From Terricaulis sp. (GTDB lineage Bacteria > Pseudomonadota > Alphaproteobacteria > Caulobacterales > Aquidulcibacteraceae): a stretch of 64,000 nucleotides of DNA. Shown here in pieces: positions 190 through 22,028 of the stretch. Under the pieces are notes generated by a model. That model made no database searches and was not told the DNA's origin. It worked only from the letters and a program-made list of their open reading frames with translations. The DNA is taken from positions 1,364,001 through 1,428,000 of the forward strand of contig JANPZV010000005.1 in NCBI GenBank assembly GCA_024707365.1, read 5' to 3'. The translations under genes were made by a program, and so were the position numbers. The first letter of the stretch is position 1. Each line of letters opens with the position of its first letter.

Positions 190-1485
190 TTAGCCTTTCT
201 TGCCTGAGGCGCGGACGGCGATGGCGTCAACCACCTTGAACACGCGCGGCGCTTGGTATGAGGCGAGCGCTTCGCGGCAGGCGGCGAGAATGGCGCTGCG
301 CGTGGCGGCGGGATCGAGGCTGGGCTCAATCACCACCTCGGCGGCGACGAGGAAACCTGAGATCGGGTTTGGCTGGCCAAACACGCGCGCTTCCAGCACG
401 CCGGGCTGTTGCAGCAGAAATTGCTCGATCGCCAGCGGATAGACCTTGGAGCCGCCGACATTGATGGTGGAGTCATCACGGCCGACGATGTAAGCGCGTT
501 CGCCGCGGATTTCGACGCGATCGGCGGTGGCGAGCCAGCCGTCATCCTGGATCGGCTGCGGCGTATCGGAAACGTAATTGCGCATCGCGTTCGGCGTGCG
601 GATGTGCAGGAAGCCATCGCGCACGCGCAGCTCCGCGCCTTGATGGGCGCTCTCGAGCCAGGCGGCGGGAAAGCCCTCAAGCCCATCGTGCACGGAGAAC
701 ACCACGCCCGCTTCGGTGGAGGCGTAGATGTGGGTGACGCGCGCATCGGGGAAGGCTTTGCGCACGCGATCGAGCGTGGATTGATCCGCCGCTTCCCCGC
801 CAAGCGTGATCTGGCGCAGCGCAAGATCGCCGGGGCGCATCGTCATCAGGAAGGAGCGCCAGAAGGTTGGCGTGGCGCTGATCTGGGTGACGCCGCCGGT
901 GCGCGCCGCTTCGAGGAAGCCTGACGGGGTGCGCTCGTTCGGCGTGACGATGACGCCGCCGGTGATGGCGGCGGTGAGCTGCACCTGCAGGCCGGCAAAG
1001 CCTGTGGGCTGGTAGGTGAGCAGCCATTTGGCGCCGGGGCTGGCTTTGCTGGCGCCGGCTTGGGCGCGGCTGAGCAGGGCGCCCAGGCTATGGGCGGCGA
1101 TCTTGGGCGCGCCGGTGGTGCCGGAGGTCATCATAAAGATGCGCCCGGCGGGCGGCTGGCCCTCGGTGCTGATCGCTGTCAGCGCATCGGCTTCGCCGAC
1201 GATCAATTGAATGGCGAATTGCTGTTTGATCGACTCGATCTCTGCTTCGGGCAGATTGGTGTGGGCGATGAAGAGATCAGCGCCGGCGCGGGCGGCGCCA
1301 TCGATCGCGCGCAGGATGTGCAGCGGATCATCGCTCAGCACCATGAGGCGGCTGACGCCTTCGGCCGTGATCAGCGCCGCAAGCGCCGCCCCACGCTCAG
1401 CCAGCGCGCCGCGCGTGATCTGCCGATCCAGATAGGCGATGAGCGGGGCGGTTTCGCTGCTCGCGATGCCGAAGGCGCCGGCCAT
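190..1485 (-). CDS. AMP-forming acyl/amino-acid ligase (ANL superfamily), DltA-like role
   Basis: A 431-residue adenylate-forming enzyme that should activate a carboxylate with ATP and load it on a thiol carrier. The phosphate-binding motif MTSGTTGAPK is near residue 118, YASTEAG (adenine-binding motif) lies in the middle, and the hinge region reads GRDDSTINVGGSKVYP. The C-terminus has ASGKKG, where the catalytic lysine of the family lies. It is shorter than typical acyl-CoA ligases (about 500 residues), mostly at the N-terminus. The gene lies 3 bases downstream of an ACP gene, so that ACP is the likely acceptor, as DltA charges DltC. The substrate cannot be read from the sequence. Confidence 0.85.
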   Translation of the reverse strand: MAGAFGIASSETAPLIAYLDRQITRGALAERGAALAALITAEGVSRLMVLSDDPLHILRAIDGAARAGADLFIAHTNLPEAEIESIKQQFAIQLIVGEADALTAISTEGQPPAGRIFMMTSGTTGAPKIAAHSLGALLSRAQAGASKASPGAKWLLTYQPTGFAGLQVQLTAAITGGVIVTPNERTPSGFLEAARTGGVTQISATPTFWRSFLMTMRPGDLALRQITLGGEAADQSTLDRVRKAFPDARVTHIYASTEAGVVFSVHDGLEGFPAAWLESAHQGAELRVRDGFLHIRTPNAMRNYVSDTPQPIQDDGWLATADRVEIRGERAYIVGRDDSTINVGGSKVYPLAIEQFLLQQPGVLEARVFGQPNPISGFLVAAEVVIEPSLDPAATRSAILAACREALASYQAPRVFKVVDAIAVRASGKKG

Positions 1486-2797: not shown

Positions 2798-4260
2798 TTA
2801 GAACCGGAAATAGATGAATTGCTGCTGCGCATCGTAGAAGGCGCCGAGCAGAATGATGCTGACGATAACGGCGTAGCACGTGGCCCAGCTGATCGCCGGC
2901 CGCTTGGAAAACAGCGCCTCGCCCTTGAAGCGCCCGTGCAGAAGATCTGCGCCCATCAGCACAATGACGCCGAGCATGGCGAGGGCAAATTGGGCGAGGT
3001 TGCCGTCAATGACGCCTTTGACGCCGTCCACAATTTCGCCCCAGCCGGAGCCGAGCTGGCCGATCATCAGCATCGCGTCGCCCATATCGTTGGCGCGGAA
3101 GAGGATGTAGGCAAAGCACACCAGCAGGAAGGTGACGCCGATCTTGAGGCCCTGATAAAATTTGGGCCGCTCATTGAGCTTCACGGCGCGCGCGAAAGTA
3201 TTCCAGCGCTTCTGCAGCAGCAGCGAGATCACGATATAGGCGCCATGCAGCGCGCCCCAGGCGACGAAATTCCAGTTCGCGCCGTGCCAGAAGCCGCTGA
3301 TCACGAAGGTGATCATCAGGCTCCACAGCATCAGCGTGTAGAATTTGATCTTGAACTTTTTTTGCCGCGTCAGCGGGTGTAGACGTAATCGGTGAGCCAA
3401 GAGGACAGCGAGATGTGCCAGCGCTTCCAGAAATCCTGGATCGACACCGCGAAATAGGGTCGGGCGAAGTTTTGCGTCAGCCGGTAGCCAAACAATAGCG
3501 CTATGCCGAGGGCGATATTGGTATAGCCGGCGAAATCGGCGTAGATCTGGAAGGCGTAAAGCAGCGTGGCGAAGGCGATCTGCACCCCGCTCGCCGCTTC
3601 TGGATTATCGTAAACGCTGTTGACGAAGGGGGCGATGCGATCGGCGATCACCGCCTTCTGGACGAGCCCCCAAAGAATGAGCTGCATCGCCTCGATCGCC
3701 TGGGCGTAGTTGAAGCCGGGGCGGGCGTGCAATTGCGGCAAGAGGTTCTTGGCCCGCTCAATCGGGCCGGCGATCAGTTTGGGAAAAAACGCCACATAAA
3801 GCGCGAATATGCCGAACTGCCGCTCGGCCTTCTGGCCGCGAAAGACATCCACCAGATAGGAAATCAGCTGGAAGGTGTAAAAGGAGATGCCGAGCGGCAG
3901 CAGCCAGCGCAGCTCCGGCACGGGATACTCAACGTGCGCCAGGCCAAACAGGCCGCGCAGCGTCTCGTTGAACATCGGCGTGTATTTAAACAGCACAAGA
4001 TTGCCGACGAGCAGGGCGAGCGCGGGCCAAAGCAGCTTCTGCTTGGCGGGCTTATCGGGGGCGGCCTCGATCTTCTGGGCGAACCAGAATGAGACACCCG
4101 TGGCGGCCAGGATCTGCACGAGAAACAGCGGCTCGGCGTAGCCGTAGAAAAAGAGGCTCGCCGCCAGCAGCCAAATCCAGCGCGCGCGCTGCGGCAATGC
4201 GAAGTGGACAAGCACCACCAGCGCGAAAAACCACGCAAAACTTGGTGTGGTAAACGCCAC
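2798..4260 (-). CDS. MBOAT family O-acyltransferase (DltB/AlgI-like), frameshifted
   Basis: Two frames (4272 to 3370 and 3400 to 2798) join into one polytopic membrane protein of about 487 residues. The break is near 3375, where VYTR is followed by a premature stop while the other frame continues LTRQKKFKIKF. Typical MBOAT blocks are visible: YADFAGYTNIALGIALLFGY, DFWKRWHISLSSWL, and the active-site histidine in SGFWHGANWN. I prefer the GTG at 4260 (MAFTTPSF) because a GGGGAA site lies just upstream; a GTG at 4272 is also in frame. It heads the SGNH/ACP/ligase/SDR operon and presumably moves an acyl group from the ACP across the membrane. Confidence 0.85.
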
Positions 4261-4390
4261 TCTATTCCCCACGGATATGGCGCTCTGCTTGCAGCCCTTG
4301 CGGCCGGAAGCAAGTATGGCGCCTAAAATTATTCAATCAGAGCGGCGCTTTAATCTCATTGCGAGGTTCATTGGCCGTTTCGTAGGCGCT

Positions 4391-5857
4391 TCACCAGCTT
4401 AACGTATCGGGAGGCAGGAGGGCGGCGGCGGCGAAGCTGACGGCGACGACGGCGCCGATCAGCCAGGAGGTCTTATCCCGGAAGGCGTGAACCAGCGGGT
4501 CGTCATGCATTTGCCCGCGCTCCGTGATCAGCCAGATGCGGCAAAGCCAGAACACCACCGCCGCCGGCATCACCCAGAGAATGAAGGGCTCGCCGTAATG
4601 GCTGGCATTGGCCGGCTCCTGCAGGTAGAGCGCGAGCACCAGCGCGGAGACAAAGCCTGCGCCCACGCCCATGGATTTGAGGATGGGCCCATCCGTGTGC
4701 AGGTAGCCGCGCCGGTTGAGCGCGCCGCCGCCCTTCGCGGCGAGGGCGTCCACCTCGGCGACGCGCTTCACCAGCGCAAGGCTGAGGAAGAAGAAGCAAG
4801 AGAACGCCAGCAGCCAGCCGCTGGCGATGTAGCCGGCCGCGACCCCGCCCAGCACAACGCGGAGCGTGTAAACCCCGGCCAGCACGAACACGTCCACCAG
4901 CACGATGCGCTTGAGCCAGAAGGTGTAGAGCGTGGTCGTGACGAGATAAGCGAGGATGTAAAACAGCGCGCCGGCTGCAGCCCCAAGCGCCACGCCCACC
5001 GCCAAAAGCACGAAGGATGCGGCCACCCCGATCAGCGGATTGAGCGCGCCGCTGGCGAACGGGCGGCGCCGCTTGCGCGCATGGCGCCGGTCCGCATCGA
5101 TATCGGCGGCGTCGTTGACGAGATAAACGCTCGATGCAGTGAAGCAGAGCGCAAAGAAGGCGATGACGGCGTTTTGCCAAGCCGCCATATCGGCCCAGCC
5201 CTGGCCGATCAGCATCGGCACGAACGCCAGCACGTTCTTGGCCCATTGCTGCGGGCGGATCGCCTTGATGAAGCCGCGCAGGCGGCTGGAGGCGGGCGGA
5301 AATTCTTTCTCCACCTCAAAATCGCGCGCAGCTTGGCGCGCCAGCGCTTTGGGCGTGTTGACTAGAACCGCGCCTTGCGCCGCAGCCCAGACTTTCAAAT
5401 CCGCGCTTTCATTGCCGGCGTAAACAAAGCCTTGCGGATAGGCGGCGGCGAGCGCCTTGGCCTTGGCGCTGGATTTGAGATTGGTCTGCCCGTCTGAGGC
5501 GAACACTGCGTCAAACAGGCCAAGATGCTCGGCCACAGCTTGCGCGGATTTGGAATCGGCTGCGGTGGCGAGCGCGATGGTGCGCCCGCGCGCTTTTTCG
5601 CTTTTCAGCCACTCAATCAGCGCAGCCTCGTAAGGCAGATCGGCGGGATCAAACGGCGCAGCTTCCGCAAGGCGCATCTTGGCGTAGGCGCGGCCCTTCA
5701 TGAACCAGCCGATCAGCGTGAAGATTTTCCAGGGCGCGGCCACGAGAAAACGCAGGATCGCTTCGCTGAACACGTCCCCGCGCATCAGCGTGCCGTCGAG
5801 ATCGACGGCCAGCGGGAGCGCGGCGCTTGCCTGCTTTGCCAGCCCTTCGGCGCTCAT
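4391..5857 (-). CDS. HAD phosphatase - UbiA prenyltransferase fusion
   Basis: About 488 residues in two parts. Residues 15-190 form a HAD-type domain (AVDLDGTLMRGD nucleophile motif, later YAGNESADLKVW). Residues 205-485 form a UbiA-type membrane domain with about eight helices and the Mg-prenyl-diphosphate motif NDAADIDADRRH, followed by KRRRPFASG. Related fusions are annotated as decaprenyl-phosphate phosphoribosyltransferase-like enzymes making lipid-linked sugars, so a lipid-linked sugar donor for envelope glycans is a reasonable guess. Start taken at ATG 5857 (MSAEG) with GGTGGGA upstream; an in-frame GTG is at 5869. The 130-base gap to the MBOAT gene leaves co-transcription open. Confidence 0.85.
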   Translation of the reverse strand: MSAEGLAKQASAALPLAVDLDGTLMRGDVFSEAILRFLVAAPWKIFTLIGWFMKGRAYAKMRLAEAAPFDPADLPYEAALIEWLKSEKARGRTIALATAADSKSAQAVAEHLGLFDAVFASDGQTNLKSSAKAKALAAAYPQGFVYAGNESADLKVWAAAQGAVLVNTPKALARQAARDFEVEKEFPPASSRLRGFIKAIRPQQWAKNVLAFVPMLIGQGWADMAAWQNAVIAFFALCFTASSVYLVNDAADIDADRRHARKRRRPFASGALNPLIGVAASFVLLAVGVALGAAAGALFYILAYLVTTTLYTFWLKRIVLVDVFVLAGVYTLRVVLGGVAAGYIASGWLLAFSCFFFLSLALVKRVAEVDALAAKGGGALNRRGYLHTDGPILKSMGVGAGFVSALVLALYLQEPANASHYGEPFILWVMPAAVVFWLCRIWLITERGQMHDDPLVHAFRDKTSWLIGAVVAVSFAAAALLPPDTLSW

Positions 5858-6282
5858 ATTCGTTCCCACCCGATATCACCTACGATCAGCGCACAAAGCT
5901 GGCGGCATCGTCTGCAATCAATGTGCCGCTTGGCAAATTGGCCCAAGAGGCGTCTCAGATTTGTGAAGCTGCGTGGGGCTGCGCCGCGCACTTATGCTGA
6001 AGATTGCCTTAATGCGTGGTTTATATGTCTCGACCCCGCTACGCGGGGGGCGTTTCTTAAAGTATTTGTCGCAACGTCCGCCCTTGTTCGGTTGCCGCCC
6101 TCCTCTGCGGCGGAGGGTGCCGACCTCGGTGCGTCCGCCGCGGGAGGGGCGTAATCTGCGTTGGGGAAAGGCCGCTTTGGCGGAGCCGGGGCGGGCGCGC
6201 CGGTATGGCGTAGATGTTGCTTGGCACAATGGGTTACGCGGTCTAGTTTAGGGCGGGACTGCGCGGGCTGGAGTGGTTGCGC
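5858..6282. other. Divergent intergenic region upstream of the NRPS-PKS locus
   Basis: About 425 bases between the divergent UbiA and NRPS genes, with no convincing gene. It holds a short hairpin CCCCGC-TAC-GCGGGG near 6036-6050 and G/C-rich inverted segments near 6100-6160 (CCCTCC...GGAGGG). Promoters for both directions must lie here, but no strong -35/-10 pair is evident. GGAG at 6270 is a fair ribosome site for a GTG start at 6283. Confidence 0.4.
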
Positions 6283-9200
6283 GTGAGTGGGACAAATACG
6301 GCCTTGTCGGCAGTTTCCGCGGTTTTCATCGGCGATGGCCCGCTGGCGATGCGCTGCATGGACGCATTTACTGCGTCCGGCGGCGGCGTTGTAACCCTAA
6401 TTACCAAAGATGGCGCGCTTGCCGCCCAGGCTGCCGAGCGCGGCGTGCGCGTCAGCGGCAAAACCGATGCTGCGCTCGCCGAAGCGGCCGGGTCCGCGTT
6501 TGATTATCTTTTTAGCATCGCCAATCTCGACATGCTGCCGGCGCCGCTCATCGCCGCCGCGCGCAAGATGGCGATCAATTTCCATGACGGGCCGCTGCCG
6601 CGCTATGCGGGCCTGAACGCCACAACCTGGGCGATTCTAAACGGTGAGCAGCAACATGGTGTGACTTGGCACGAAATGACCGCGAAAGCGGATGCCGGCG
6701 GCATCGTCGCCGCCGAAACCGTGCAGGTTGACCCGGATGAAACGGCGCTCAGCCTCAACGCAAAATGCTATGAGGCGGGCTTCACCGGTTTTCAGAAAAT
6801 TCTGGAACAGATCGCTGCGGGCGACCTCCAGGCGCGCGCCCAGCAGGGGAGCGCAGCTATTTCGGGCGCGTGAAGCGCCCGGCCGCCTTGGCGACGCTGG
6901 CGTTTGAGGCGACGGCCGCGCAAGCGCTGGCGCTGGTGCGCGGGCTGAGCTTCGGCCCTTACGCCAATCCGCTGACATCCGCCAAATTGTGGACCGGTGA
7001 GCGCGCTCTGCTCGTTGGCGCCGCAGCCATTTCGGAAGACGCCGCTTCTGCCGCGCCCGGAACGGTGCTCGCGATTGATGCGCAATCGGTCACGATCGCC
7101 ACCGCCGATCAGCCGGTGCGGCTCTCGGATTTGACCGATGAGCACGGCGAGCCGGTTGACCCCTCGCTTGACGCTGGCTTGAAGCTCGGCGCGGCGGCGC
7201 CGCGCGTGACGCAAGATTGCATCGCTTTGATCGATCGCTTCGGCAAGGCGGCCGCGAAATCTGAAGCGTTCTGGCTGGAGCACAGCGCGCGCGCTGAAGC
7301 GCTGGACTCTCCTTATCCGCGCGCGCGTCGTGCGGGCGCGGTTGCGCATGAGGCGCAGCTGGCGTCGCAAACGACCGCGCAAGCGGCTGTCGCCGCGCTG
7401 GCGGCTTGGGCCGCGCGCGTCGCCGGTGTCCGCGCGGTTTCATTGGCTTTGTTCGATGCGGCGCTTGAAGCGGAGATGGGCGATAGTGCGCGCTGGTTCG
7501 CACGCTGGCGTCCGCTGACGCTGGACGCGCCGGCTGAGGCCGATTTGGCTGCGCTTCATGCGGCGGCTGCGGGAGTGCTCGCTGCGGCGCGCGATGCGGG
7601 CCCGATGGCGCGTGATGCATATGTGCGCCGCGCGCGCCAGGATCGTGGCCGCGGCCGCGCCGAAGATTTGAGCTTCGCTGTGGCGATTGGCGCTGGTGCG
7701 CCCGAACATCCGAACGCGGATGTCACGCTGCGTTTTGTGGATGGGGCGCTCTCGATTATCGTGCGCGGCGATGCGTTCGAGCCGGAGACGGCTCAGGTCA
7801 TGGCCAGTCATGTCGGCGCTGCGCTGCGCGCGCTGGCTGAGACCCCGCATGTCAAGCTTGTCGATCTGGATTTGCGCGATGCGCGCGAAACGGCCGCCTT
7901 GGCTGCGTGCGAGGTTGGGCCGTCGGTGGGGGCCTCCGGGCTTTCGATCCATGGCGCGATCGCCCGCCAGGCTGCGGCGACGCCCGACAAGATCGCGGTG
8001 CGGACGCGCTGGGCGGAGTTGACGTATTCGGCGCTCGAGGCGCGCGCTGAAAGCGTTGCGGCGCAACTGGCTGCGCGTGGCGTGAAGCCGGGTGATGTTG
8101 TCGGCGTGCGCATGGAGCGCTCAGTCGATCTTGTGGTGGCGCTGCTTGCGGTGCTGAAAGCAGGGGCGGCCTACACCCCGCTCGATCCGGCGTATCCGTC
8201 TGAGCGGCTGGCCTTCATGCTGGAAGATTGCCGCGCGCGGTTCGTGATCGCCGATAAAGCCGGCAATTTCGCCGCTGGCGTTGAAACGCTTGCGCTTGCC
8301 GATCTGGTCGCCGCCGCGCCTTTGGAATGGCGCGCGCCGGAAGCCAAGGCCGATGACCTGGCGTATTTGATCTACACCTCGGGTTCGACGGGAAAGCCCA
8401 AGGGCGTAAAGGTGCATCATGGCGCCGTCGCCAACTTCTTCGACGGCATGGATCTGCGTATCCCGCACGAAAATCCAGGCACGTGGCTTGCCGTGACGAG
8501 CCCGAATTTTGACATCTCCGTGCTTGAGCTGTTCTGGACGTTGGCGCGCGGCTTCACCGTGGCGTTGCACGTCGCGTCGGTTCATGCCGAGCAGGCCTCA
8601 CGGCCGGATTTCAGCCTGTTTTATTTCGCCGCGTCCTCGCAGGCGGGCGGCAATCCATACAAGCTCCTGCTGGACGGCGCGCGTTTCGCCGACGAAAATG
8701 GCTTTGAGGCGGTGTGGACGCCAGAGCGCCACTTTCACGATTTCGGCGGCGCCTATCCCAATCCAGCGGTCACCAGCGCGGCGGTTGCGGCAATCACAAA
8801 GCGCGTGAAAATCCGCGCTGGCAGCTGCGTGCTGCCGCTGCACCATCCGATCCGCGTTGCTGAAGATTGGTCGGTGATCGATAATATCTCGGGCGGCCGC
8901 GTCGGGCTTGCATTTGCAACCGGCTGGCAGCCGAACGATTTCGTGCTCGCGCCCGATGCGTTCGCCGATCGCAAGCAGATCCTGATGGATCGCATGGAAA
9001 CCGTGCGCCGGCTGTGGCGCGGAGAGAGTGTTGAGTTTGCCGCCCCGGATGGGAAAGTCTCGTCCACGCGCGTGCTGCCGCGTCCGGTGCAAGCCGATCT
9101 GCCGCTCTGGCTGACGGTGGCGCGCAACCCCGAAACATTTGAAGCGGCGGGCCTAACGGCCTTAATGTGCTGACGCACATGTTGGGCATGGGGATCGATG

Positions 9201-10849
9201 AGCTCGCGCGCAATATCGCGCTCTATCGCGCCGCCCGCGCCAAGGCCGGGCATGCCGGTGAGGGGCGCGTCACGCTTATGCTGCACGCGTTTGCCGGTGC
9301 ATGCGATGACAGTGTGCGCGAGATCGTGCGCGCGCCGATGAAATCCTATCTTGGCAGCGCGATTGATCTGGTGCGCGATGCAGCGTGGAGCTTCCCCCAC
9401 CTTCATCCAGAAAAGCCAGCAGACCGGAAAAACGCCAAAGGAAATCTTCGACGCCGAGCCGCTCAAGCCTGAGGAGCTCGACGCGCTGCTCGATCATGCT
9501 TTTGAGCGGTATTTTGTCACGAGCGGGCTGTTCGGCTCTGTCGAAACATGCGTGGAGATGGTCGGCAAAGTGCAGGGCATTGGCGTCGATGAGATTGCCT
9601 GCCTTGTCGATTTCGGCGTCGACGCCGATCGCGCGATCGAGCATCTGCCCTATCTGCGCCAAGTGATGGACGCCGCTGAGCGTTCGCTTGCGCCGATGCA
9701 GCGTTACACTGTGGCCGAAGATATCCGCCATTTCGACGCTACCCACCTGCAATGTACCCCTTCGATGGCGCTCATGCTGGCGGGGATGCAGATGTCGCCG
9801 CGATGCAGCGGCTTAAGGCGATTATGGTGGGCGGGGAGGCGCTGCCGCTGGATTTGGCGCAGGCGCTGCGCGCGCGGGCGCCGGGCGCGAAGCTGCTCAA
9901 CATGTATGGGCCGACTGAAACCACGATCTGGTCAACGGTTGCCGAGCTCAACGAGATCGGCAGTTTCATTCCGCTGGGCGAGGCCATCGCCAACACCACG
10001 CTGCGCATCGTCAACGCCGATGGGCGCCGCCAGCCTGCCCTGGCGGCGGGCGAGTTGTGGATCGGCGGCGCCGGCGTCTCGCAAGGATATTGGGAGCGCG
10101 CGGATCTGAACGCCGATCGCTTCGTTGCGCCGCACGATAGCCAAGGCGAGATCATGTATCGCACCGGCGATCTGGTGCGCCGTCATGCCAATGGCGCGCT
10201 CGAATTTCTCGGTCGGATCGATCATCAGGTCAAAATTCGCGGGCACCGCATCGAGCTTGGCGAGATCGAGGCGGCGCTGGCGGCGGATCCGAGCATCGGG
10301 CAGGTGGTCGTGGTGGCGCGGGGCGCAGCCAGCGATGCGCGTCTCGTGGCCTATTGCATCGCGAAAGCCGGCGCGGCGTTCGATGAAAAAGCGGTGCGTG
10401 AGCGGCTGGCGCGAACCTTGCCGGAGATCATGGTGCCGGCGGCCTTTGTCGCACTCAGCGCAATGCCGCTGACGCCGAACGGCAAGATTGACCGCAAGGC
10501 GCTGCCCGAGCCGAGTGTCGCGGCGGCGGGCGTCAGCGAGGCGCCCTCCGATGAGACTGAAGCCAAAGTGGCGGCGCTTTGGGGCGAGTTGCTGGGCCTT
10601 GATCGCATCGGCGTCACCGATAATTTCTTCGATCTCGGCGGCCATTCCTTGTTGGCGTTCCAAATGTTGCGGCGCATTCAAGCAGAGATGAACAGCGACG
10701 TGACCATCACGGATGTGTTCAGGTTCTCCACCGTGCGCGCGCTGGCGACGCGCATCCGCGGCGATGAAGCCGAAAACACTGTGGATCAGGGCGTGGATCG
10801 CGCGCGGGCGCGTCTCGCGGCGCGCCGCCGCGGCCGGGTTGAGGCATAA
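6283..10849 (+). CDS. NRPS loading module: formyltransferase - C-like remnant - A domain with inserted luciferase-like monooxygenase - T (four frame breaks)
   Basis: Read across breaks near 6860, 9160, 9397 and 9785, this is one protein of about 1,520 residues. Order: formyltransferase catalytic domain (6283-6850; INFHDGPLPRY with Asn and His, Asp in KADAGG), then the YFGR linker and an Fmt-C-like domain (6858-7150). Next is a short condensation-like remnant without an HHxxxD motif (7200-7900), and the A-domain N-half with YTSGSTGKPKG and FDISVLELFW (7930-8600). A MupA/Atu3671-type FMN luciferase-like monooxygenase follows (about 8605-9690). Then come the A-domain C-half (YGPTETT, YRTGDLV, NGKIDRKAL) and a carrier domain (LGGHSL, about 10640). 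It should activate an amino acid, with formylation and flavin oxygenation as likely tailoring. No true condensation domain is present, as expected for a starter module. The PKS begins 5 bases downstream. Confidence 0.85.
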
Positions 10850-10854
10850 ACATC

Positions 10855-13800
10855 ATGGCCGATGAAAACAGCATCGCCATTGTTGGCATGGCTGGGCATT
10901 TCCCTGGCGCGCGAAATGTGAACGAATTCTGGGCCATGCTGGCGGCCGGACGCGACGCCACAAAATGGCTGACCGTGGACGAGTTGATCGCCGCGGGCGA
11001 GCGCATGTCGGCCATCCAGGATCCGAATTATGTGCGGGCGACGATGCAATTGCCCGACATGGAAATGTTCGATGCTGATTTCTTCGGCTTCACGCCGCGC
11101 GAAGCGTCGATCCTTGATCCGCAGCACCGGCATTTTATCGAATGTTGCTGGGAGGCGCTCGAAGATGCCGGGCGCGTGCCTGAGACGTTCGACGGATCAA
11201 TCGGCGTGTTCGGCGGCTGCGGCATGCAGGCGTACATGGCCTATAATCTGCTCAGCAATCCCGATCTGGTTGATCAGATCGGCATGTTTTTGCTGCGCCA
11301 CACCGGCAACGACAAAGACTTCCTCACCACGCGCGTGTCTTACCTGCTGAATCTGCAGGGGCCGTCCGTGGGCGTGCAAACCGCATGCTCGACCTCGCTG
11401 GTGGCGGTGCACGTCGCTTGTCAGAGCCTGCTCTCGCGCGAGTGCGACATGGCGCTGGCGGGCGGGGTCAGCATCGATCTGCCGCACGGACGCGGGTATC
11501 GCTACGCGGAAGGAGAGATTCTATCCTCAACGGGCCGTTGCCGCGCATTTGATGATGAGGCGAACGGCACGCTGTTTGGCAGTGGCGCGGGCGTGGTGGC
11601 GTTGCGCCGCCTCGAAGACGCGCTCGCCGATGGCGATAACATCCACGCCGTCATCCTCGGTTCGGCAATCAATAATGATGGCGCGCGCAAGGCTGGCTAT
11701 CTCGCGCCGAGCGTGGACGGGCAGGCCGTTGCGGCGGCCGAAGCGCTGATGATTTCAGGCGTCGAACCGGCGAGCGTTGATTATATCGAAGCGCACGGCA
11801 CCGGCACGCTTGTGGGCGATCCGATTGAACTTGCCGCTTTGCAGCAGGCTTATAAGGGCGCGGGCGCGGGCACAGTCGGCATCGGCTCGCTGAAGACCAA
11901 TATCGGCCACCTCGACACCGCCGCGGGCGTCGCCTCGATGATGAAGGTGGCGCAGGCGCTGCGTCATGAGCGGCTGCCCGCCTCGCTCAATTTTTCAAAG
12001 CCGAACTCCCGGTTCGATCTGGCGCGCAGCCCGTTTAAGGTTGTCACCGAAGGTCGGCCGTGGTCGCGCCGCGCCACCCCTCGCCGCGCTAGCGTCAATT
12101 CGCTCGGCGTGGGCGGCACCAATGCGCACGTTGTTCTGGAGGAGGCGCCGGTGCGCACGCCATCGCGCGCGACGGGTCCGCAAATTCTGACGTTCTCGGC
12201 GAAAAATGCGGCGTCGCTGGATGGATTGGTCGGCAAGTGGGGCGCATTTCTCGATGCGCCAGGGCCGGATTTCTCGTTGGCTGACGCAGCCTATACCACC
12301 CAAGTTGGGCGCAGAGCGTTTCAACGCCGCCTAGCGGTCGTTGCGCGCGATGCCGGTGATTTGGCGGAAAAGCTGACGCGCCCGGCAGAACTCAAGCGCC
12401 TCATCGGCGTTGCGCCCGATGCTGCGCCGCGCATCGCTTTCATGTTCCCAGGCGGAGGCGCGCAATATCCGAACGCGGCGCGCAAGCTTTACGAAGCAAA
12501 CCCGATCTTCCGCGCGGCGGTCGAAGAATGCTTCGCCAGCATGCCTGCTCAGGCGCCGGCCGATTTGCGCAAGCACATGTTCGAGGCGGCCGATCCTGAA
12601 GCGGCTCGGCTGGTGCTCGAACAGCCGATGTTCTCGCTGCTTTCGGTATTTGTTGTTGAGTATGGCTTGGGCAAGCTCTGGGCCAATTGGGGCGTGGAGC
12701 CAGCGGTCGCTATCGGTCACAGCGCTGGCGAATACGTCGCGGCCGTGCTCGCTGGCGTGATGACGCTGAAGGACGCGCTTGGCGTCGTTGCGCTGCGCGG
12801 GGAGATTTTTGAAAGCGCGCCTGCAGGCGGCATGCTGAGCGTGAAAACCTCAGAGGCGAACGTGCGCGCGCTGATGGGCGATGAGCTTGATCTTGCGGTT
12901 GTGAACGGGCCGGAGCTCACGGTTGTTTCCGGCGCGAAAGCGCCGCTCGCGGCATTTGCGGCGCGTTTGGATGAAGCCGGCATCGAGCACGCCACCATCC
13001 GCATTCGCGTCGCCGCGCACTCGCGCATGCTGGATGACGCCCTGCCGCGCTTCCGTGCGTTCCTCGATACAGTGCGCTTCAGTGAGCCGAAGCTGCCGTT
13101 CATCAGCAACCTTTCGGGCCGCATCGCCGCGCCGGGCGAGGTGACGAACGCCGATTATTGGGTGAGGCACCTGCGTCATGCGGTGCGTTTCGCGGATGGC
13201 CTGCGCGCGGCGCTGGCCGAACCGCACACGATTCTGCTTGAAGTCGGCCCCGGCCAATCTTTGTCTGCGCTCGCCAGCTTGGCCGATGGCGCACACGATC
13301 CGCTCGCGGTGATCGCCTCAACGCCAGCGCCCAAAGAGGCGCAGGACGATGAAGTGTTCGCGTATGAAGCCCTGGGTCAGCTCTGGGCGCATGGCGCGCC
13401 GATCGATTTCTCGCGTGCGCGCGAACCTGGCCGCTATAACCGCATCTCGCTGCCGACCTATGCGTTCGAGCGCAAACGCCACTGGATTGAGCCTGGCCGG
13501 GGTCTCGCCGCCGCCGAGCCGGAGGCTGTGGCGGTGTTGCGCCGCGCCGATATCAAGGATTGGTTTGACGAGCGGGTGTGGGAGCGGGCGCCTTCTGCAG
13601 GGGCCGCCGCCATCGAGGGCCCGCATATTGTCTTCACCGATGGCTCGCCATTGTCGCAGCAAATCGTTGCAGAGCTTGAGGCGCGCCGGATGCGCTGCGT
13701 GCTGGTGGCGCAAGGAGAGCGTTTCGCTTGCACGGGCGAGGATCAATACACCCTCAACCCGGCGTCGGGAGATGATTTCGGCGCGCTGATCGATGCGGTG

Positions 13801-16800
13801 TCTAATGACGCGCTGCCGCCTGTCGCTTTGCTGTATCTGTGGCCGCGTACAGCCGCGCGCGATAACGCCAACGCGGTGTTCGACGCGACGTTCAATCTCG
13901 CCAAAGCCATGCAAGTGCGTGGGTGGGAAGATGGCGTGCGTCTGCTCGCTGTGACTGAAAGCGCGCTGCCGGCAGGGGCGCTGCCGCCGCGCAATCCGTT
14001 GCAGGCGCTGACGATTGGCCCAGTGCGAGCGCTGGCCGCAGAATCGCCGGGCGTGCGCGCGCGCGTGCTTGATCTGGATGACGCGGGCGAAGGCGCTGCG
14101 GCGCGCGTGCTTGCGGAGCTTCAGGCTTGGGAGGACCCGCCGATCGTCGCCTGGCGCGGTGACGAGCGTTTGGTCGAAACGCTGAAGCCGCTGGCGGGCG
14201 CCAAGCCGCGTTTTGCGCCGCGCGAAGAGGGCGTCTACCTGATCAGCGGCGGCATGGGCGGCATTGGCCATCAACTGGCGCGCTATCTTGCATCGTCGGC
14301 GCGCGCGCGGCTTGTGCTGCTTGGGCGCGGCCCGGTGCTGGCGCGCGAGCAATGGGCGCATGCGGCTGAAGGGTATGGTGCGCCAACCGATGTGGCGCGG
14401 GCGCGGGCGTGGCTTGAACTGGAAGCGCTTGGCGCGGAGGTTCTGCCTGTCTCGGCTGACGTGACCGACGCTGGCGCCATGCGCGCCGTGCTGGAACTCG
14501 CGCGGGAGCGCTTTGGCGCGCTCAACGGGTGTTTTCCACGCAGCGGGCGCGATCGATGATGCGCCGATTGCTGCGAAGGATTTGGCGGATGCGCACAACG
14601 TGCTTTCGCCGAAGGTCGATGGCGCGCGCGTGCTCAATGAGCTTATCCCTGATGGCGCAGTGGATGTGTTCGCGGTGTTTTCTTCAACCAGCGTGCTGCT
14701 CGAAGCGCCTGGGCAAAGCGATTACATCGCCGCCAACCGCGCACTCGATCGATCGCTGCGGCGCGCAGCGACGGTTTGAGCATCGCCTGGGGGATGTGGG
14801 CCGATATCGGAATGGCAAAGCGCGTGGTGGACGCCGCAGCCAGTGGCGCGGCCGATCCGCATGCGCATCCGCTGCTCGGCGTGCGCACTGATGATGAAGA
14901 CGGCGTGATCCGCTTCTCGGCCACTTATGCGGCTGAGCGCCTCTGGGTGCTGGCTGAGCACAGGATCGACGGCTTCGCGGTGTTGCCGGGTACGGCCTAT
15001 ATTGAGATCGCCAATGCAGCTGCGTTGCGCGGCGGGCTCGGCGCTTCGGTTGCGCTGCGTCATCTGAATTTCCTTTCGCCGCTGATCGTGAGTGAAGGCC
15101 GCTCACGCCAGGCGCGCGTGACGTTGAGCCCGCTTGCAGATGATGGCTATCGCATCGAGGTCGAGAGCCGCGCCAACGCTGCTGAGGAGTGGCAGCTGCA
15201 CTTCGAGGCGCAGATTGGCGCTTTTACCGCCGCGCCCGCGCCGATTGAGCCGGTGCAGGCCGAGCAAACGATTACAGCTGAACGCCTTTTGATCGCCGAT
15301 CGCGGCGTCGATTTTGGGCCGCGCTGGCGCAACGTGCGCGTTGCTGCGCGGGGTGAAGGTGTGGTCTCGGCTGAGTTCGCCTTGAGCAAAGAATTTGCCG
15401 ATGACGTGCGGACCTTCCGTGCCCACCCGGCCTTGCTCGATACGGCGGCGGCGACAGGGCTCTTCCTGATTGATGCAGACGGCGATGGCGGGGTCTACGC
15501 GCCGGTTTCGATGGAGGCTGTGCGCCTGTTTAGCGCGCTGCCGGCAGAGCTTTACGCGCGCGCGCGCATGGTGTCGGCGCCTGATGCTGTTGATGCGGTG
15601 TTTGACGTTGATATCAGCGACGCCTCAGGCGCTGTGATCGCAAGAAATCCGCGGGGCGGCGTATCGGCGTATCGTGTTTGATGCGGCGGCTGCGGCGTTT
15701 GCCGCGCCCTTGCGCGCCGACGCCAGCGTGGCTGAGCGGATGCTCGCAGCGGGCATCCGTGCGGACGAGGCCGATAAGGTGATGGCGCACTTGTTCGCAA
15801 GCAGCGCGCGCGCGCTGGTTGTCTCGCCTGTTGATATTGCGATCACCCGCGCCGCCTCGGGCGCGACGGCCGTGGCTAAACCGCGCGCCGCAGCCGAAAG
15901 CGCGGTGTCGAGCGCCGATTGGGTGGATGAGGTCGAAAAGCGCGTGGCCGAGATGTGCGCCGATATTCTTGGCGTCGATGACCTTGGCCCGGATGCTGAG
16001 TTCTTGTCCTATGGCGGCGGCTCGCTCGCAGGCGTGCGCCTGTTTGCGCGCATCCGGCGTGAATTGGGCGCCGAGCTTTCGTTGAGCGCGCTGCTGCACG
16101 AGCCGACGATACGCGGGCTGGCGACTTTGGTGCGCGCCAACATGCCTCAGAAGCAGCAAGAGCAAGCGCCAGCGCCGGCGCCGAAGGAGGTCGCGGCGCA
16201 AGCGCCAGCTTCTGCCGCGCAAGCGGCGCCTGCGCCGGCGTCCAATGTGACGCCGCTGCCGCGCCGCTCAAAATGGACGCCGCTTGTGCCTATGGGCGGG
16301 CAGAAGCTTTCCGGCCAGCGCCCCGTGTTCCTGATCCATGGCTGGCTTGGAAACGTGGTGTGGCTCAAGCCGTTGGCGGATGAGTTGCGCACGGACATGC
16401 CGGTATATGGCGTTGAGGCGCAGGGCATAGACGGCACTTTGCCGTTCCTGGAATCCATTGAGGAAATGGCGGCGCTCTATGTGCGCCACATCTTTACGAT
16501 CGATCCGATCGGGCCTTATCGGATCATTGGCTATTCCGGCGGCGGCGTGATCGCGTTTGAAATGGCGCAAATCATTCGCCGCAGCGGGCGCGAGGTCGAG
16601 CTTTTGGGCATGCTTGACACCTTGGCGCCCAGGGCGACCGTGCCGATGAGCTTTGCCGACAAGCTCAAATTCGCCACCAAGATGAGCCCTTCCTATCTCC
16701 TGGGGTGGCCGCTCAAAAGTCTGCGGCCGCTGCGCAGCATGTTGTTGCAGCGCTGGCGTGAGATCACCACGGGTGAGCGCACGACGCACCTTGAGGCGCT

Positions 16801-17092
16801 CTCTGATTTGTGCTCGGCCGCCTACATGCGCGCCCAAAATAAGTACAAGCCGCAACCCTACGATGGCGACATCGTGCTCTATCGCGCGATGCAGGCAGAG
16901 GCGCTTTTCCTCCGTGCAGGGCCGTTGCTCGGATGGGACGATGTGTTCAGCGGCAATGCGGATGTGGTGATGCTCGACGCCGATCACGGGCTGCTGAACA
17001 AAAAGAAATCGCTGGACACGCTGGTCGAGGATTTGCGTCGTCGCCTTGACGTTGCAGAGCAGGCGCCGGCGGCTCAGCGCGAGATGCGATGA
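10855..17092 (+). CDS. Type I polyketide synthase KS-AT-KR-DH-ACP-TE (three frame breaks)
   Basis: Joined across breaks near 14530, 14765 and 15680, this is one protein of about 2,080 residues. KS: TACSTSLVAVH (Cys about residue 178), EAHGTGT and NIGHLDTAAG. AT: GHSAGEYVAA (Ser about 623) and AHSRMLD. KR: LISGGMGGIG plus the Ser-Tyr-Asn set FSSTS...SDYIAANR. DH: HRIDGFAVLPG (HxxxGxxxxP) and HPALLD. ACP: YGGGSLAGV. TE: GYSGGGVIAF and DADHGLL. It should extend the aminoacyl thioester by one ketide unit, reduce and dehydrate it to an enoyl thioester, and release it by the thioesterase. The KR-before-DH order is unusual for modular PKS. It follows the NRPS by 5 bases and overlaps the next gene by ATGA. 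Confidence 0.9.
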
Positions 17093-18033
17093 TCGCGCGT
17101 CTGGCTCCGCTTTTTCCCGTGATTGCGCTCGTTGTTGTGCTGGCGACGATCGCATTGCTTTGTTTGGCCGTTTGGCTCGAGTCGATGGCGCTCACCAATC
17201 CTCCTGGGTATCGCCAGCCCGATCCGCGCACGTTCAGCTATACGCGGACGCCGCGAAGCGAACTTGGGCTGGAATACGAGGATATCTCCTTCGCCGCGCC
17301 AAGCCAGGAGGTCATCCGCGCCTGGCTTGTGCCCGCGCCGGAGGACGCCAAGCGCGTGGCGGCGGTGCTGGTGCATGGCCGCGGCGGCGACCGTGCGGCG
17401 GTGATGGGGTTCATGCCGCTGCTGCACGAGTTGGGCGCGGGCGTCGTGGCGATCGATCTGCGCGAGAACGGTTTGAGCGCGGGCTCGGGCCGCGGCACCA
17501 CGATTGGGATGCGTGAGGCGGAAGATGTGGCGGCCGCAGCGGCGGAGATGCGGCGGCGCGGCTATGAGAGGGTGGTGCTGATCGGCTGCTCGCTTGGGGC
17601 CTCGGCGTCGATCCTCGCCGCAGCGAGAGATACGTCGATCGATGGAGTGTTCGCTGATAGCCCCATTGCCTATTTCGACCGGTTCGTGGCCGAGATCGCC
17701 GACAAACGCTTGGCCAAGTTTGGCGTGTCCGCGCCGTGGGCGACGGCGATCTGGGGGCGAGCCGTCTTAGCGCTCACGCGCGCGCGGCTGGGCCTGCGGG
17801 ACTATGAGGGGTCGGCGGACGCGGTGGGGCGCATTGCCCCTCGTCCTGTCATGCTTGCCTATGGCGACCAGGATGCGTTGACCGCACCGGCCACGCACGG
17901 GCAAGCCCTGGCCGCGCAGGCCGGGGACGGCGCATCCTTGTGGGTGGTTGAGGGCGCTGGCCATTGCGAAGCGCCGTTTGCGGCGCCGGACGCCTTCCGG
18001 GCGCGTATTCTTGCGTTGCTGGACGGCGGCTGA
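17089..18033 (+). CDS. Membrane-anchored alpha/beta hydrolase
   Basis: 314 residues with one N-terminal hydrophobic helix (about 8-32), then an alpha/beta-hydrolase fold: HGRGGD oxyanion region, nucleophile motif GCSLGAS, acid region YGDQDALTAP and the final histidine in GAGHCEAP. It starts inside the PKS stop (ATGA overlap), so it belongs to the NRPS-PKS operon. It may trim, hydrolyse or export-couple the product at the membrane; that is inference. A general esterase or peptidase role cannot be excluded. Confidence 0.75.
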   Translation: MIARLAPLFPVIALVVVLATIALLCLAVWLESMALTNPPGYRQPDPRTFSYTRTPRSELGLEYEDISFAAPSQEVIRAWLVPAPEDAKRVAAVLVHGRGGDRAAVMGFMPLLHELGAGVVAIDLRENGLSAGSGRGTTIGMREAEDVAAAAAEMRRRGYERVVLIGCSLGASASILAAARDTSIDGVFADSPIAYFDRFVAEIADKRLAKFGVSAPWATAIWGRAVLALTRARLGLRDYEGSADAVGRIAPRPVMLAYGDQDALTAPATHGQALAAQAGDGASLWVVEGAGHCEAPFAAPDAFRARILALLDGG

Positions 18034-18065: not shown

Positions 18066-18288
18066 CCCTGCGCGTTAGAGCGGCTGCGGGCCAGGGTCGG
18101 GTTGGCCTACTTTTTGCGTTTTCGCCAAAACCGGGGATGAGGCGCCCAAAGCAGCGCCTCAAGCACGGTGCGCCATGATGATCATAGCGTAAAATTTGAG
18201 CAAGGCGGGCGGAGTTTCCCGGCTGTCTTAACGGCTCTTATGCGCCGATTTGAGATGTCTCTTAGTTAAGTTGGTATCAGGCGCATCA

Positions 18289-20004
18289 ATGACTGAATCT
18301 GCATCAGGCAAGAGGGAGAATGTTTCGGTCAACAAGGCCGTTCGGCAGGGGTTTCTCTGGAATCTGCTGAACTTTCTTATCTCGCAAGGGGCGGGGATCG
18401 CGATTTTCCTGCTTTTGTCGCGGGCTGTGACGCCGACGATCTACGGCGTGTTTGCGATCGCGGCCACCATTGTCGACCTGTTCGGGTTTCAGGGGCGATG
18501 GGCGGCGATGGATGCGTTGATCCAGCGCCGCGATTATTCGCAGCGCGCGCTTTCGACCGCGTTTTTCAGCCTCATGGGCGTGGTTGTCGCGCTGGTTGTT
18601 ATCTCAATTGCGTGCGCAGGGCTGATGGCGGACGCCTTCGGCGAGGCCTCGCTGAGCCACGTTCTGCCCGCGCTGGCGATCACGCTCCTGTTTACGCCGC
18701 CGATCATCATCATGGACGCGCTGATCATGCGGAATTTACAATTCCGCGCTTCAGCGATCCGTTCAATTGTCGGCACATTGTTCGGCGGCGCTGCTGGCTT
18801 GGCGGTCGCCTTCAGTCCTGCAGTGGAGTGGGCGCTTGTCGCGCAACGCCTCGTTACCTCCGTGGTGACGCTGGTGGTCATGTTCGCGTTCACGCGTTGG
18901 ATCCCGCAATGGACATTCGACACCGCAAGTGTCGGCGGCTTCTTACGCCGCAGCCTCCAGCTCTGGGCGACTTCCATCCTCTCGTCGTTGCAAACCTCCG
19001 TTGTGCACGCGGCTGTCGGCTTTCGGGCGGGGGTCGAGGCGCTGGGCCTTGTGATTGTGGCGCGGCGGTTTGAAAACCTTCTGCATGGCCCTGTCACGAC
19101 ACCGATCCAGGCGCTTTGGGTGCCTGTATTGTCGGTGCTGCGCTCGGACATGGGCGAGAGCTGGCGGTTGTTTTTGCGGCTTTCGCAATTGACGGCTTTG
19201 GTGGCGCTGCCTGCATTTGTGGGGCTAAGCCTGGTCGCGCACGAGCTTGTCGTGCTGCTGCTTGATGCGCGTTATCATGATGCTGATGACATCCTTGTCG
19301 TCATCGCATTGCATGGCCTTTTCATTCCGGTGGGGTATTTCGCCAACCTGGTTTTCACCGGTCTCGATCGCAGCGATCTGTCACTAAAGTTCTCGCTGAT
19401 TGGCGTCATTTGCTACATCCCGGCGATCTGGCTGGCGTCTGCCTATGGAGCGGTCGCGGCGCTATGGGTGAGCTTTGTAGCCAGCGGCGCGCTCGGCCTG
19501 GTGGCGACATTCGTTCAAATTCGCATGTTCCAAGGGCGTTATCTTGAGTTCGCTAAGGCGTTGGCGCCGGGGTATTCCGGCATCGCGGCAATGGCGTCGG
19601 CCGTGCTCGCGCTTAAGCATTTTCTGCCAATCGAAAACAGCATATTGACCCTCGTCATCAGCATGGCGGTCGGCGCTGTGGTGTACGGCGCTTGGCTTAT
19701 CCTGTTTCACCGAAGCCAATTGATGGAGGCTTGGCGCTTTTTTTTCAAGTTCGCGGGCCGGCGGCGGACTCAACGCGGCGGTGTCGTAGCCGGGCAAAGG
19801 GTGCGCTTGCGATGCGCCTCAGGGGCGGAGAGATTAATGTGCAGCCGCCTCGCCGAACGGCGCGGCGCGGTGGCTGCAGGCAATAAGGGGCGGACAACAT
19901 GGCGATCTCTCGGCTCAAGGCCGTGGCCAAGACCGTTTACGGCCGGGTCATGGCGCGGTCGCAAATCGCGGCCTATTTGGCGCAATCGGACGCACGCCGG
20001 CTGA
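18289..20004 (+). CDS. Polysaccharide flippase (Wzx-like, MATE/MOP superfamily); C-terminal tail doubtful
   Basis: A polytopic protein with about 12-14 helices, beginning NKAVRQGFLWNLLN and YGVFAIAATIVDLFGFQG, typical of O-antigen or exopolysaccharide flippases that move lipid-linked repeat units to the periplasm. Start ATG 18289; an in-frame ATG at 18250 is further from the domain. The last 85 residues (after a run of nine T near 19736-19745) are arginine-rich, non-membrane, and overlap the next gene by about 100 bases. A frame slip in the T run would end the protein near 19789 or 19886 instead. It heads a block of glycosyltransferase and methyltransferase genes. Confidence 0.85.
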   Translation: MTESASGKRENVSVNKAVRQGFLWNLLNFLISQGAGIAIFLLLSRAVTPTIYGVFAIAATIVDLFGFQGRWAAMDALIQRRDYSQRALSTAFFSLMGVVVALVVISIACAGLMADAFGEASLSHVLPALAITLLFTPPIIIMDALIMRNLQFRASAIRSIVGTLFGGAAGLAVAFSPAVEWALVAQRLVTSVVTLVVMFAFTRWIPQWTFDTASVGGFLRRSLQLWATSILSSLQTSVVHAAVGFRAGVEALGLVIVARRFENLLHGPVTTPIQALWVPVLSVLRSDMGESWRLFLRLSQLTALVALPAFVGLSLVAHELVVLLLDARYHDADDILVVIALHGLFIPVGYFANLVFTGLDRSDLSLKFSLIGVICYIPAIWLASAYGAVAALWVSFVASGALGLVATFVQIRMFQGRYLEFAKALAPGYSGIAAMASAVLALKHFLPIENSILTLVISMAVGAVVYGAWLILFHRSQLMEAWRFFFKFAGRRRTQRGGVVAGQRVRLRCASGAERLMCSRLAERRGAVAAGNKGRTTWRSLGSRPWPRPFTAGSWRGRKSRPIWRNRTHAG

Positions 20005-20576
20005 ATCTGGGGTGCGGGCATAACGTGCTGCCTGGCTGGCTCAATGTCGATCTTGAGGGCGGTCGGCACGGTAAAACCTTCATGAATGCGCTGCGCCCGT
20101 TTCCGCTGCCGGACGCTTCAATTGACGCCATTCTTTGCGAGCATTTGATCGAGCATGTCCCGGCTGAGGGCGGTGTGTTCTTGCTGAAAGAGGCGTTTCG
20201 GGTGCTTAAGCCAGGCGGCGTCATCCGCGTGATCACGCCCGATCTTGAAGGGTTGGCGCGCATGTGCGTGCAGGCCCCCAACGACGCTGAGCGGCGCTAT
20301 CTCGATTTCGTGGCGCAATTGCATAAGCGCCCGTCGATCGAGCCGTCCGATGCGCTGAACTACATTTTCTACGAATACGGGCATCGCCATATTTACAGCG
20401 TGGCGCGCTTGCGTGCCGTGCTTGACGAGGCCGGCTTCAAGGACATCAGCGAAAGCCGCGCGGGGGCGCCTTCAAACCCCGCGTTTATTGGCGCTGAAGG
20501 TCATCCCGCCTTTATGGGCGCCGAAAACGACGCGATCGAGGCTTTCGCGCTCGAAGCGGTCAAGCCAGAGCGCTGA
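19899..20576 (+). CDS. SAM-dependent methyltransferase (type 11)
   Basis: 225 residues. The SAM site LNLGCGHNVLPGWLNVDL is near residue 35. It is followed by the post-I acidic position, CEHLIEHVP, and the FRVLKPGGVIRVITPDLEG strand typical of Methyltransf_11 proteins in polysaccharide loci. A good ribosome site (AAGGGG) precedes the ATG. The substrate may be a sugar of the surface glycan or its lipid carrier; nothing in the sequence fixes this. Confidence 0.85.
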   Translation: MAISRLKAVAKTVYGRVMARSQIAAYLAQSDARRLNLGCGHNVLPGWLNVDLEGGRHGKTFMNALRPFPLPDASIDAILCEHLIEHVPAEGGVFLLKEAFRVLKPGGVIRVITPDLEGLARMCVQAPNDAERRYLDFVAQLHKRPSIEPSDALNYIFYEYGHRHIYSVARLRAVLDEAGFKDISESRAGAPSNPAFIGAEGHPAFMGAENDAIEAFALEAVKPER

Positions 20577-21902: not shown

Positions 21903-22028
21903 GCGGGTCATGGCCCGCGCTATAGGAAAATCAATAAATTTCCGGTAATTTGAGCTTCATCGTGTGCGGGGCGTGCCGGCGACGCCCATGTCTCGTTGAA
22001 CAATGCCCAAGCTAAAAGGGGACGGGTT

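Follow-up and report, generated by a model that had tools for sequence, protein, structure and literature searches.

Which product could come from an assembly line whose starter module combines a formyltransferase with a monooxygenase, and whose genes lie among those for a polysaccharide? This question is raised by two adjacent genes in a 64,000-nucleotide stretch of the Terricaulis sp. assembly GCA_024707365.1 (contig JANPZV010000005.1, positions 1,364,001 to 1,428,000; the window), of which the first encodes a nonribosomal peptide synthetase (NRPS) with an adenylation (A) domain split by a luciferase-like monooxygenase (LLM) and the second a polyketide synthase (PKS) module. We propose that the two proteins would convert glycine into an N-formylated starter hydroxylated at its alpha carbon and likely build from it a small acyl group for an exopolysaccharide, a reading whose probability we put at about 0.45.

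Architecture and spread of the interrupted synthetase

Queried piece by piece with Pfam and NCBIfam/TIGR profiles, the frames between positions 6277 and 10849 encode Formyl_trans_N, Fmt-C, the C-terminal part of a condensation (C) domain, the A domain split by a TIGR04020 insert and a carrier (T) domain, distributed over several reading frames (Table 1). The insert lies between the motifs A4 (FDISVLELFW) and A5 (NMYGPTETT), and its first piece alone scores 298.6 bits against the curated cut-off of 244.45 for TIGR04020, the MupA/Atu3671 type of luciferase-like monooxygenase. Profile matches and motifs agree with a sequence-only reading of this DNA, which had proposed this domain order, the insert within the A domain, and a formyltransferase with its Fmt-C domain upstream. 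The same reading had named two findings that would speak against it, a monooxygenase encoded by a gene of its own and a formyltransferase lacking its catalytic residues. The frame 6277-6873 contains the Asn, His and Asp in INFHDGPLPRYAG and KADAGG, which we take to be the catalytic residues.

The first of these findings was addressed in relatives. At locus L008 (genome G010), from the window's own family, both A halves, the insert and the carrier domain lie in a single frame of 1006 codons, and both A halves and the LLM share one open frame in 79 of 80 named loci, the 80th (L086) ending near a contig edge. In the predicted model of a relative the A fold spans the insert. With one open frame in these loci and an A fold across the insert, this is an interrupted A domain, and the single frame of the intact relatives rules out a separate monooxygenase gene. 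In a protein search with the L008 monooxygenase region, the 7999 candidates with most words in common with the query were scored, and 6904 of them pass an E value of 1e-40; among the 120 matches listed (protein clusters), 107 combine formyltransferase, A domain and monooxygenase, mostly in about 1520 residues. Together with the one-frame relatives this rules out a chance juxtaposition.

At least 566 relatives were confirmed in a scan of one genome per species, and the named loci are the best 80 of them. They come from Pseudomonadota, Chloroflexota, Cyanobacteriota, Planctomycetota, Myxococcota, Gemmatimonadota and others (some labels of metagenome-assembled genomes look wrong). In 64 of the 80 the formyltransferase shares the frame of the A domain and monooxygenase, in one it has a neighbouring frame of its own, and of the remaining 15 six are cut by contig ends. 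In Deinococcus it is a separate gene directly upstream. A frame bearing a ketosynthase (KS) occurs in the examined stretch of 50 loci. Counting the window's own genome each time, TIGR04020 was found at E 1e-70 in 11 of 385 sampled alphaproteobacterial genomes, and in the window's family 2 of 60 genomes reach E 1e-60 with the window piece. No relative turned up in one scan of viral contigs with P0001. The formyltransferase-A-monooxygenase architecture is not rare but widespread. Two further observations concern individual loci. The layouts of L081 (Comamonas sp. KCTC 72670, a name that is probably wrong) and L082 (Myxococcus sp. CA023) are nearly identical, and in two 1.5-Mb genomes of the class (L099 and L100; G271 and G361) TIGR04020 lies in a frame of about 1250 residues, and the examined part shows no A domain.

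Between Fmt-C and the A domain the window has about 260 residues without a Pfam match, and PF00668 (the C domain) matches neither in the window piece nor, at E 1e-30, anywhere in the genome. When the region from 42 relatives was aligned with 38 C domains, it matched columns 185-451 of 454 with an hhalign probability of 98.1% and an E value of 1.3e-13, against control probabilities of 0.2% for the monooxygenase versus C domains and 0.1% for the remnant versus the monooxygenase. The condensation-like remnant suspected from the sequence alone is therefore real. Since the C-domain sequences had been cut to put HHxxxDG at residue 131, and the match begins at column 185, it is the portion bearing the catalytic motif that is absent.

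Other relatives have a complete C domain, with TIGR04020 inside the A domain behind it (L182, L183, L186, L188, L192 and L211-L214); L184, L185 and L189-L191 show the same arrangement with the second A half undetected, and some further TIGR04020 domains have no surrounding A domain. The same division is seen in a set of plasmid loci (15 of 22 records covering at least 80% of the query, plus 2 others). Of the 13 with a formyltransferase (formyl type), 12 have formyltransferase, remnant and split A domain in one frame without a full C domain there, and in the thirteenth, from Deinococcus, the remnant was undetected; all four others have a full C domain and no formyltransferase. The predicted formyltransferase occupies the place of the C domain's catalytic part. 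In a tree of 75 monooxygenase domains the formyl type needs 8 changes, at least 4 of them forced by well-supported branches; its 35 formyl-type rows represent about half of the formyl-type loci, and its group without formyltransferase includes contig-cut and possibly undetected cases. This tree does not settle whether the formyl type had a single origin or which state came first.

Predicted substrate and chemistry of the starter module

The code of the window's A domain, with positions that we assigned by motif after GrsA, reads DILQMGMIW(K), the final K being assumed. Of 121 proteins 118 could be parsed, and at least 83 of these show the pattern DILQ[MLC]GM[IV]W. A survey gives DILQLGMIWK as the shared code of four insert-bearing glycine A domains (PMC12283262), a single difference from the window, whose code is thus of the glycine type seen in MtaG and MelG. 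The A domain is predicted from this code to take glycine.

Flavin monooxygenases inside glycine A domains with a near-identical code are shared by MtaG (myxothiazol), MelG (melithiazol) and SolF module 4 (solanimycin). These act on a growing peptide, whereas here the formyltransferase and a C remnant start the line and a PKS follows. MtaG and MelG modules possess a C domain, which first N-acylates the glycine with the growing chain; in the window there is no complete C domain upstream, and the remnant spans the C-terminal part only. In myxothiazol and melithiazol biosynthesis the inserted domain is described to hydroxylate the alpha carbon of glycine, after which cleavage of the N-C bond leaves glyoxylate on the carrier (PMC11342130; PMC10204066), while solanimycin B keeps both hydroxyl and nitrogen (PMC10204066). 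A monooxygenase in a glycine A domain (A2) is also shared by the corallorazine-type clusters (PMC11342130), which encode a lipodipeptide line. In Burkholderia glumae (L214) the insert sits in the second A domain behind a full C domain, next to crz-like genes and without formyltransferase or polysaccharide genes, which ties this sequence family to the monooxygenases of the published clusters. The Ox domain of PuwE (PDB 6ket) has the same fold and 44% identity in the monooxygenase, but stands between PKS and NRPS modules and not within an A domain (PMC4219810).

With LgrA (linear gramicidin) and CongA (conglobatin, with a formylglycine starter) the window shares a formyltransferase fused to an A-T starter module, and as in LgrA, Formyl_trans_N with its Asn, His and Asp is followed by A and T. 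In LgrA, however, an uninterrupted A domain comes directly after the formyltransferase, whereas here a C remnant and the monooxygenase insert intervene; we know of no C remnant in LgrA or CongA. The fused formylation domain of linear gramicidin modifies the starter while it is bound to the carrier, and extension depends on it; CongA is likewise predicted to load glycine and to feed a PKS, with no occurrence of 'monooxygenase' in that part of the conglobatin paper that forms its main text (PMC4504003). Only three nonribosomal peptides with a formylation domain are counted in a review (PMC8949500).

From the code, the reported monooxygenase chemistry and the formylation in linear gramicidin we infer an N-formyl-alpha-hydroxyglycyl starter. 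The A domain would activate glycine and load it onto the carrier, and the formyltransferase, judged by its family, would then formylate the glycyl-carrier thioester as the starter module of linear gramicidin does with its own amino acid. By analogy with modules of the myxothiazol, melithiazol and solanimycin type, the inserted monooxygenase may hydroxylate the alpha carbon to give N-formyl-alpha-hydroxyglycyl-carrier. In the window the C domain lacks the part that bears its catalytic motif, and a formyltransferase is found there instead; probably, therefore, a formyl group is the minimal acylation by which glycine becomes acceptable to the oxygenase and by which the hydroxylated carbon holds on to its nitrogen.

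Next in line is a single PKS module, as the sequence-only reading had it, with KS, acyltransferase (AT), ketoreductase (KR), dehydratase (DH), acyl carrier protein (ACP) and thioesterase (TE) domains; the KR precedes the DH also in the intact relatives L048, L028 and L010, which have this domain order throughout, and in L009. This module would add one malonate-type unit, reduce it and dehydrate it, and the TE would release or transfer the product.

The main rival keeps the hydroxylation and gives it another outcome: the alpha-hydroxylated N-formylglycine would cleave, formamide would leave, and a glyoxylyl starter would remain on the carrier, from which the PKS would make a 4-oxo-crotonate-type acid. 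The cleavage described for the myxothiazol and melithiazol modules speaks for it, as does a window code one residue away from that of the four insert-bearing glycine A domains, and retention of hydroxyl and nitrogen in solanimycin B speaks against it. Furthermore, unacylated alpha-hydroxyglycine should shed ammonia by itself, so that it would seem uneconomical to formylate a nitrogen that is then lost. We regard a glyoxylyl starter as somewhat unlikely.

The N-formyl half of the earlier chemistry is thereby supported by inference; its other half, oxygenation of the nitrogen to an N-formyl-N-hydroxy or other hydroxamate chelator such as a siderophore, finds no support. N-formyl-N-hydroxy groups are known metal ligands, and the name of TIGR04020 cites Atu3671. 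The fabrubactin flavin monooxygenase FbnE is proposed to make alpha-hydroxycarboxylate chelators, an oxygenation of C and not of N (PMC12971057). Since the reported domains in glycine A domains hydroxylate the alpha carbon (PMC11342130; PMC10204066), an N-oxygenated hydroxamate is unlikely. In addition, Pfam recognised no siderophore, N-hydroxylase or uptake gene among the 30 flanking open reading frames (ORFs) searched besides the nine assembly-line pieces, a part of the 64 kb. Taken together, we consider a hydroxamate product highly improbable.

Polysaccharide genes around the pair

The sequence-only reading did not mention that the pair lies in an exopolysaccharide setting. Downstream in the window follow a Wzx-type flippase and glycosyltransferases (Table 1), and the 20 kb upstream of the window (L133) contain a weak sugar transferase, glycosyltransferases, a Wzc-like tyrosine autokinase (TIGR01007 117.5 bits, over cut-off; TIGR01005 325 bits, under cut-off) and a Wza/EpsE-like export protein (TIGR03028 94 bits, under the cut-off of 262.65). 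Matches to initiating sugar transferases (PF02397), both over cut-off, were found at distances of about 23 kb (a weak one, 55.7 bits) and 30 kb (220 bits) from the window monooxygenase. Flippase, glycosyltransferases, initiating sugar transferase and Wzc-type kinase are shared with Wzx/Wzy-type exopolysaccharide loci, and the Wza-like gene would fit such a locus too. We know of no Wzx/Wzy exopolysaccharide locus that carries NRPS-PKS genes.

A similar setting was found in relatives. PF02397 lies within 31 kb of the monooxygenase in five of seven Alphaproteobacteria of formyl-type length (G000, G081, G213, G342 and G390; not G311 and G401). In 50 further genomes from the 80 loci, with formyl type assigned by open-frame length to 49 of 72 LLM places, it lies within 30 kb in 14 of these 49 versus 1.85 expected, and in 0 of the 23 other LLM loci versus 0.69 expected. 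These figures rest on the best 150 sugar-transferase matches and on expected values that ignore contig ends and relatedness; the formyl-type locus L201 fell in the comparison group, and a few of the 49 are contig-cut or have no detected formyltransferase.

On plasmids, 10 of 11 formyl-type loci have annotated polysaccharide genes within 15 kb (Deinococcus, Parasedimentitalea, Aminobacter (two), Shinella, Ruegeria (two) and Paracoccus (three)), versus none of four full-C-domain loci with a glycosyltransferase, flippase or sugar transferase, one of which has a DegT aminotransferase. The unannotated formyl-type records L010 and L202 stand outside this count; L010 shows UDP-glucose-dehydrogenase- and glycosyltransferase-like frames. 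A first count, some of whose seeds came from the window and from two formyl-type loci, gave polysaccharide genes in 30 of the 80 named loci versus 1 of 20 NRPS and 1 of 20 random stretches. A stricter count, with seeds from the plasmid annotations, placed one or more polysaccharide genes no farther than 10 kb away in 27 of 65 formyl-type loci versus 0 of 20 NRPS and 0 of 20 random stretches; it is insensitive and finds nothing downstream in the window, where it misses the window's own glycosyltransferases and thus under-detects. One cluster of family 2 glycosyltransferases is common to 14 loci. The polysaccharide association of formyl-type loci is real, but not universal.

Judged by the gene neighbourhood, a sugar of the polysaccharide may receive the acyl group through the TE or through another transferase. 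The DltB-like MBOAT protein of the window was considered as the transferring enzyme and rejected, since only four such ORFs occur across all sets and it is hence not constant. More tentatively than for the window itself, the formyl-type lines of many phyla might be assembly-line glycan decorators, in which a formyltransferase takes the role of the catalytic part of the C domain and an acyl group derived from N-formyl-alpha-hydroxyglycine is joined to exopolysaccharides.

The product could instead be a free, secreted small molecule, with the polysaccharide genes adjoining as co-travelling traits of surface life. The PKS ends in a TE, the strict count detected no polysaccharide gene up to 10 kb from 38 of the 65 formyl-type loci, and the full-C-domain relatives in Streptomyces, Nostoc and Burkholderia have metabolite-type neighbourhoods. 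Against it speak a family 2 glycosyltransferase gene that separates the PKS gene from the formyl-type gene in Ruegeria, Paracoccus and Parasedimentitalea, and the lack of any small-molecule exporter common to the annotated loci examined. We hold a free molecule to be unlikely.

Several points also weigh against an N-formyl-alpha-hydroxyglycine-derived group on the polysaccharide. No product is known and no attachment enzyme was identified, and a TE would be just as suitable for releasing an acid as for transferring the group. In some relatives F takes the place of Q in the code, and the insert lies between A4 and A5, whereas reviews place inserts of this type between A8 and A9 (PMC12283262; PMC8949500). 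The second gene of L009, the fourth relative scanned, has an extra C-A-T module ahead of the TE, so that the product is not one fixed molecule. Besides the 38 loci of the strict count, 35 of the 49 loci of formyl-type length lack a listed PF02397 match on their contig over a distance of 30 kb. The 11 plasmid loci do not count as independent cases (two from Aminobacter, two from Ruegeria, three from Paracoccus), Aliiroseovarius has only an acetylxylan esterase and an exosortase gene and no glycosyltransferase within 15 kb, and Sneathiella-type loci have neighbours encoding a thiamine pyrophosphate enzyme and a glutathione S-transferase.

Table 1. Positions in the window of the assembly-line domains and of neighbouring genes
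Feature	Position	Strand	Evidence
Acyl-CoA ligase-like protein, probably in pieces	190..1485	-	PF00501 from model position 167
MBOAT acyltransferase, DltB-like	3370..4272	-	PF03062; TIGR04091 135 bits, below cut-off
HAD-UbiA prenyltransferase, decaprenyl-phosphate phosphoribosyltransferase-related	4391..5869	-	NF006088 581 bits, over cut-off
Formyltransferase N-terminal domain	6277..6873	+	PF00551 65.2 bits, at about 6490-6789; Asn/His/Asp motif
Formyl_trans_C domain	6894..7163	+	PF02911 30.6 bits, residues 9-98 of the 6870-9170 frame
Condensation-domain remnant, C-terminal part, HHxxxDG part missing	7164..7950 (borders approximate)	+	hhalign, relatives
Adenylation domain, first half, to A4	7962..8570	+	PF00501 176.4 bits, model positions 2-237
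Luciferase-like monooxygenase insert, three frames	8610..9665	+	TIGR04020 model positions 1-183, 188-264 and 268-340 of 341
Adenylation domain, second half, and AMP-binding_C	9700..10486 (start approximate)	+	PF00501 75.2 bits; NMYGPTETT, YRTGDLV
Carrier (T) domain	10565..10756	+	PF00550 (PP-binding) 58 bits
PKS module KS-AT-KR-DH-ACP-TE, four frames	10855..17092	+	Profile matches; order as in intact relatives
Alpha/beta hydrolase, overlaps PKS gene end	17089..18033	+	PF00561
Wzx-type polysaccharide flippase	18250..20004	+	PF13440 156 bits, over cut-off; best NCBIfam NF058658, below cut-off
Methyltransferase	19899..20576	+	PF08241
Family 2 glycosyltransferase	20590..21672	-	PF00535 111 bits
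Family 2 glycosyltransferase	22003..22926	+	PF00535 63.5 bits
Glycosyltransferase (GT1/GT4 type)	23166..24293	-	PF13692 62 bits; TIGR03087 62 bits, below cut-off

Further genes were noted around the pair. A phosphopantetheinyl transferase gene adjoins it in several relatives; none was found beside it in the window, and two PF01648 genes lie on other contigs of the same genome. At positions 31863-34797 the window has a GMC-type oxidoreductase near an epimerase/short-chain dehydrogenase (SDR) gene; in L204 the pair likewise has a UbiA gene nearby, and in L205 and L207-L209 GMC and SDR genes. Perhaps the UbiA and GMC/SDR genes of the window serve a pathway for lipid-linked sugars of the same polysaccharide. 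In seven loci (L138, at 13297-15927, L012, L051, L070, L088, L137 and L139) a conserved protein family occurs close to the pair; its representative had no Pfam match at E 1e-4.

State of the window copy and meaning of the architecture

About 4 frame changes interrupt the synthetase gene of the window (about five frames) and 3 the PKS gene (four frames). Both genes could be decayed, with activity left in the relatives only: rpoC on the same contig is a single unbroken frame while these genes are broken, which means that this copy could be inactive, and none of 29 other genomes of the genus searched matches at E 1e-60. Such a pseudogene pair is nevertheless quite unlikely in our view, as the fragments retain conserved motifs and coding-type codon use (by a scoring trained partly on the same fragments). 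Moreover, the housekeeping gene pntB (NAD(P) transhydrogenase beta subunit; 29512-30862), 12 kb downstream, is likewise split into two frames (PF02233 positions 3-270 and 284-430), which suggests indel errors in an assembly that scores only 89.7% for completeness. The frame breaks are probably assembly indels.

In a literature search that was not exhaustive we recognised no work that deals with this architecture or describes NRPS-PKS genes within exopolysaccharide loci, and as far as searched the architecture has no known characterised product. The earlier impression that it looks uncharacterised holds in this sense, but not if it is taken to mean that the architecture is uncommon, as it is frequent in sequence databases. 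Unbroken copies exist in Aminobacter, Shinella, Paracoccus, Ruegeria, Hyphomonas and Ramlibacter, for example. The chemistry proposed from the sequence alone was half right, and the setting changes what to look for, since it points to surface polysaccharides rather than to antibiotics or siderophores. Formylation that primes glycine for oxidation at its alpha carbon is a testable chemistry. If the product is attached to the polysaccharide, it would represent a glycan substituent of a new class and show assembly lines in a new role; if it is not, there would still be a widespread small molecule to be found.

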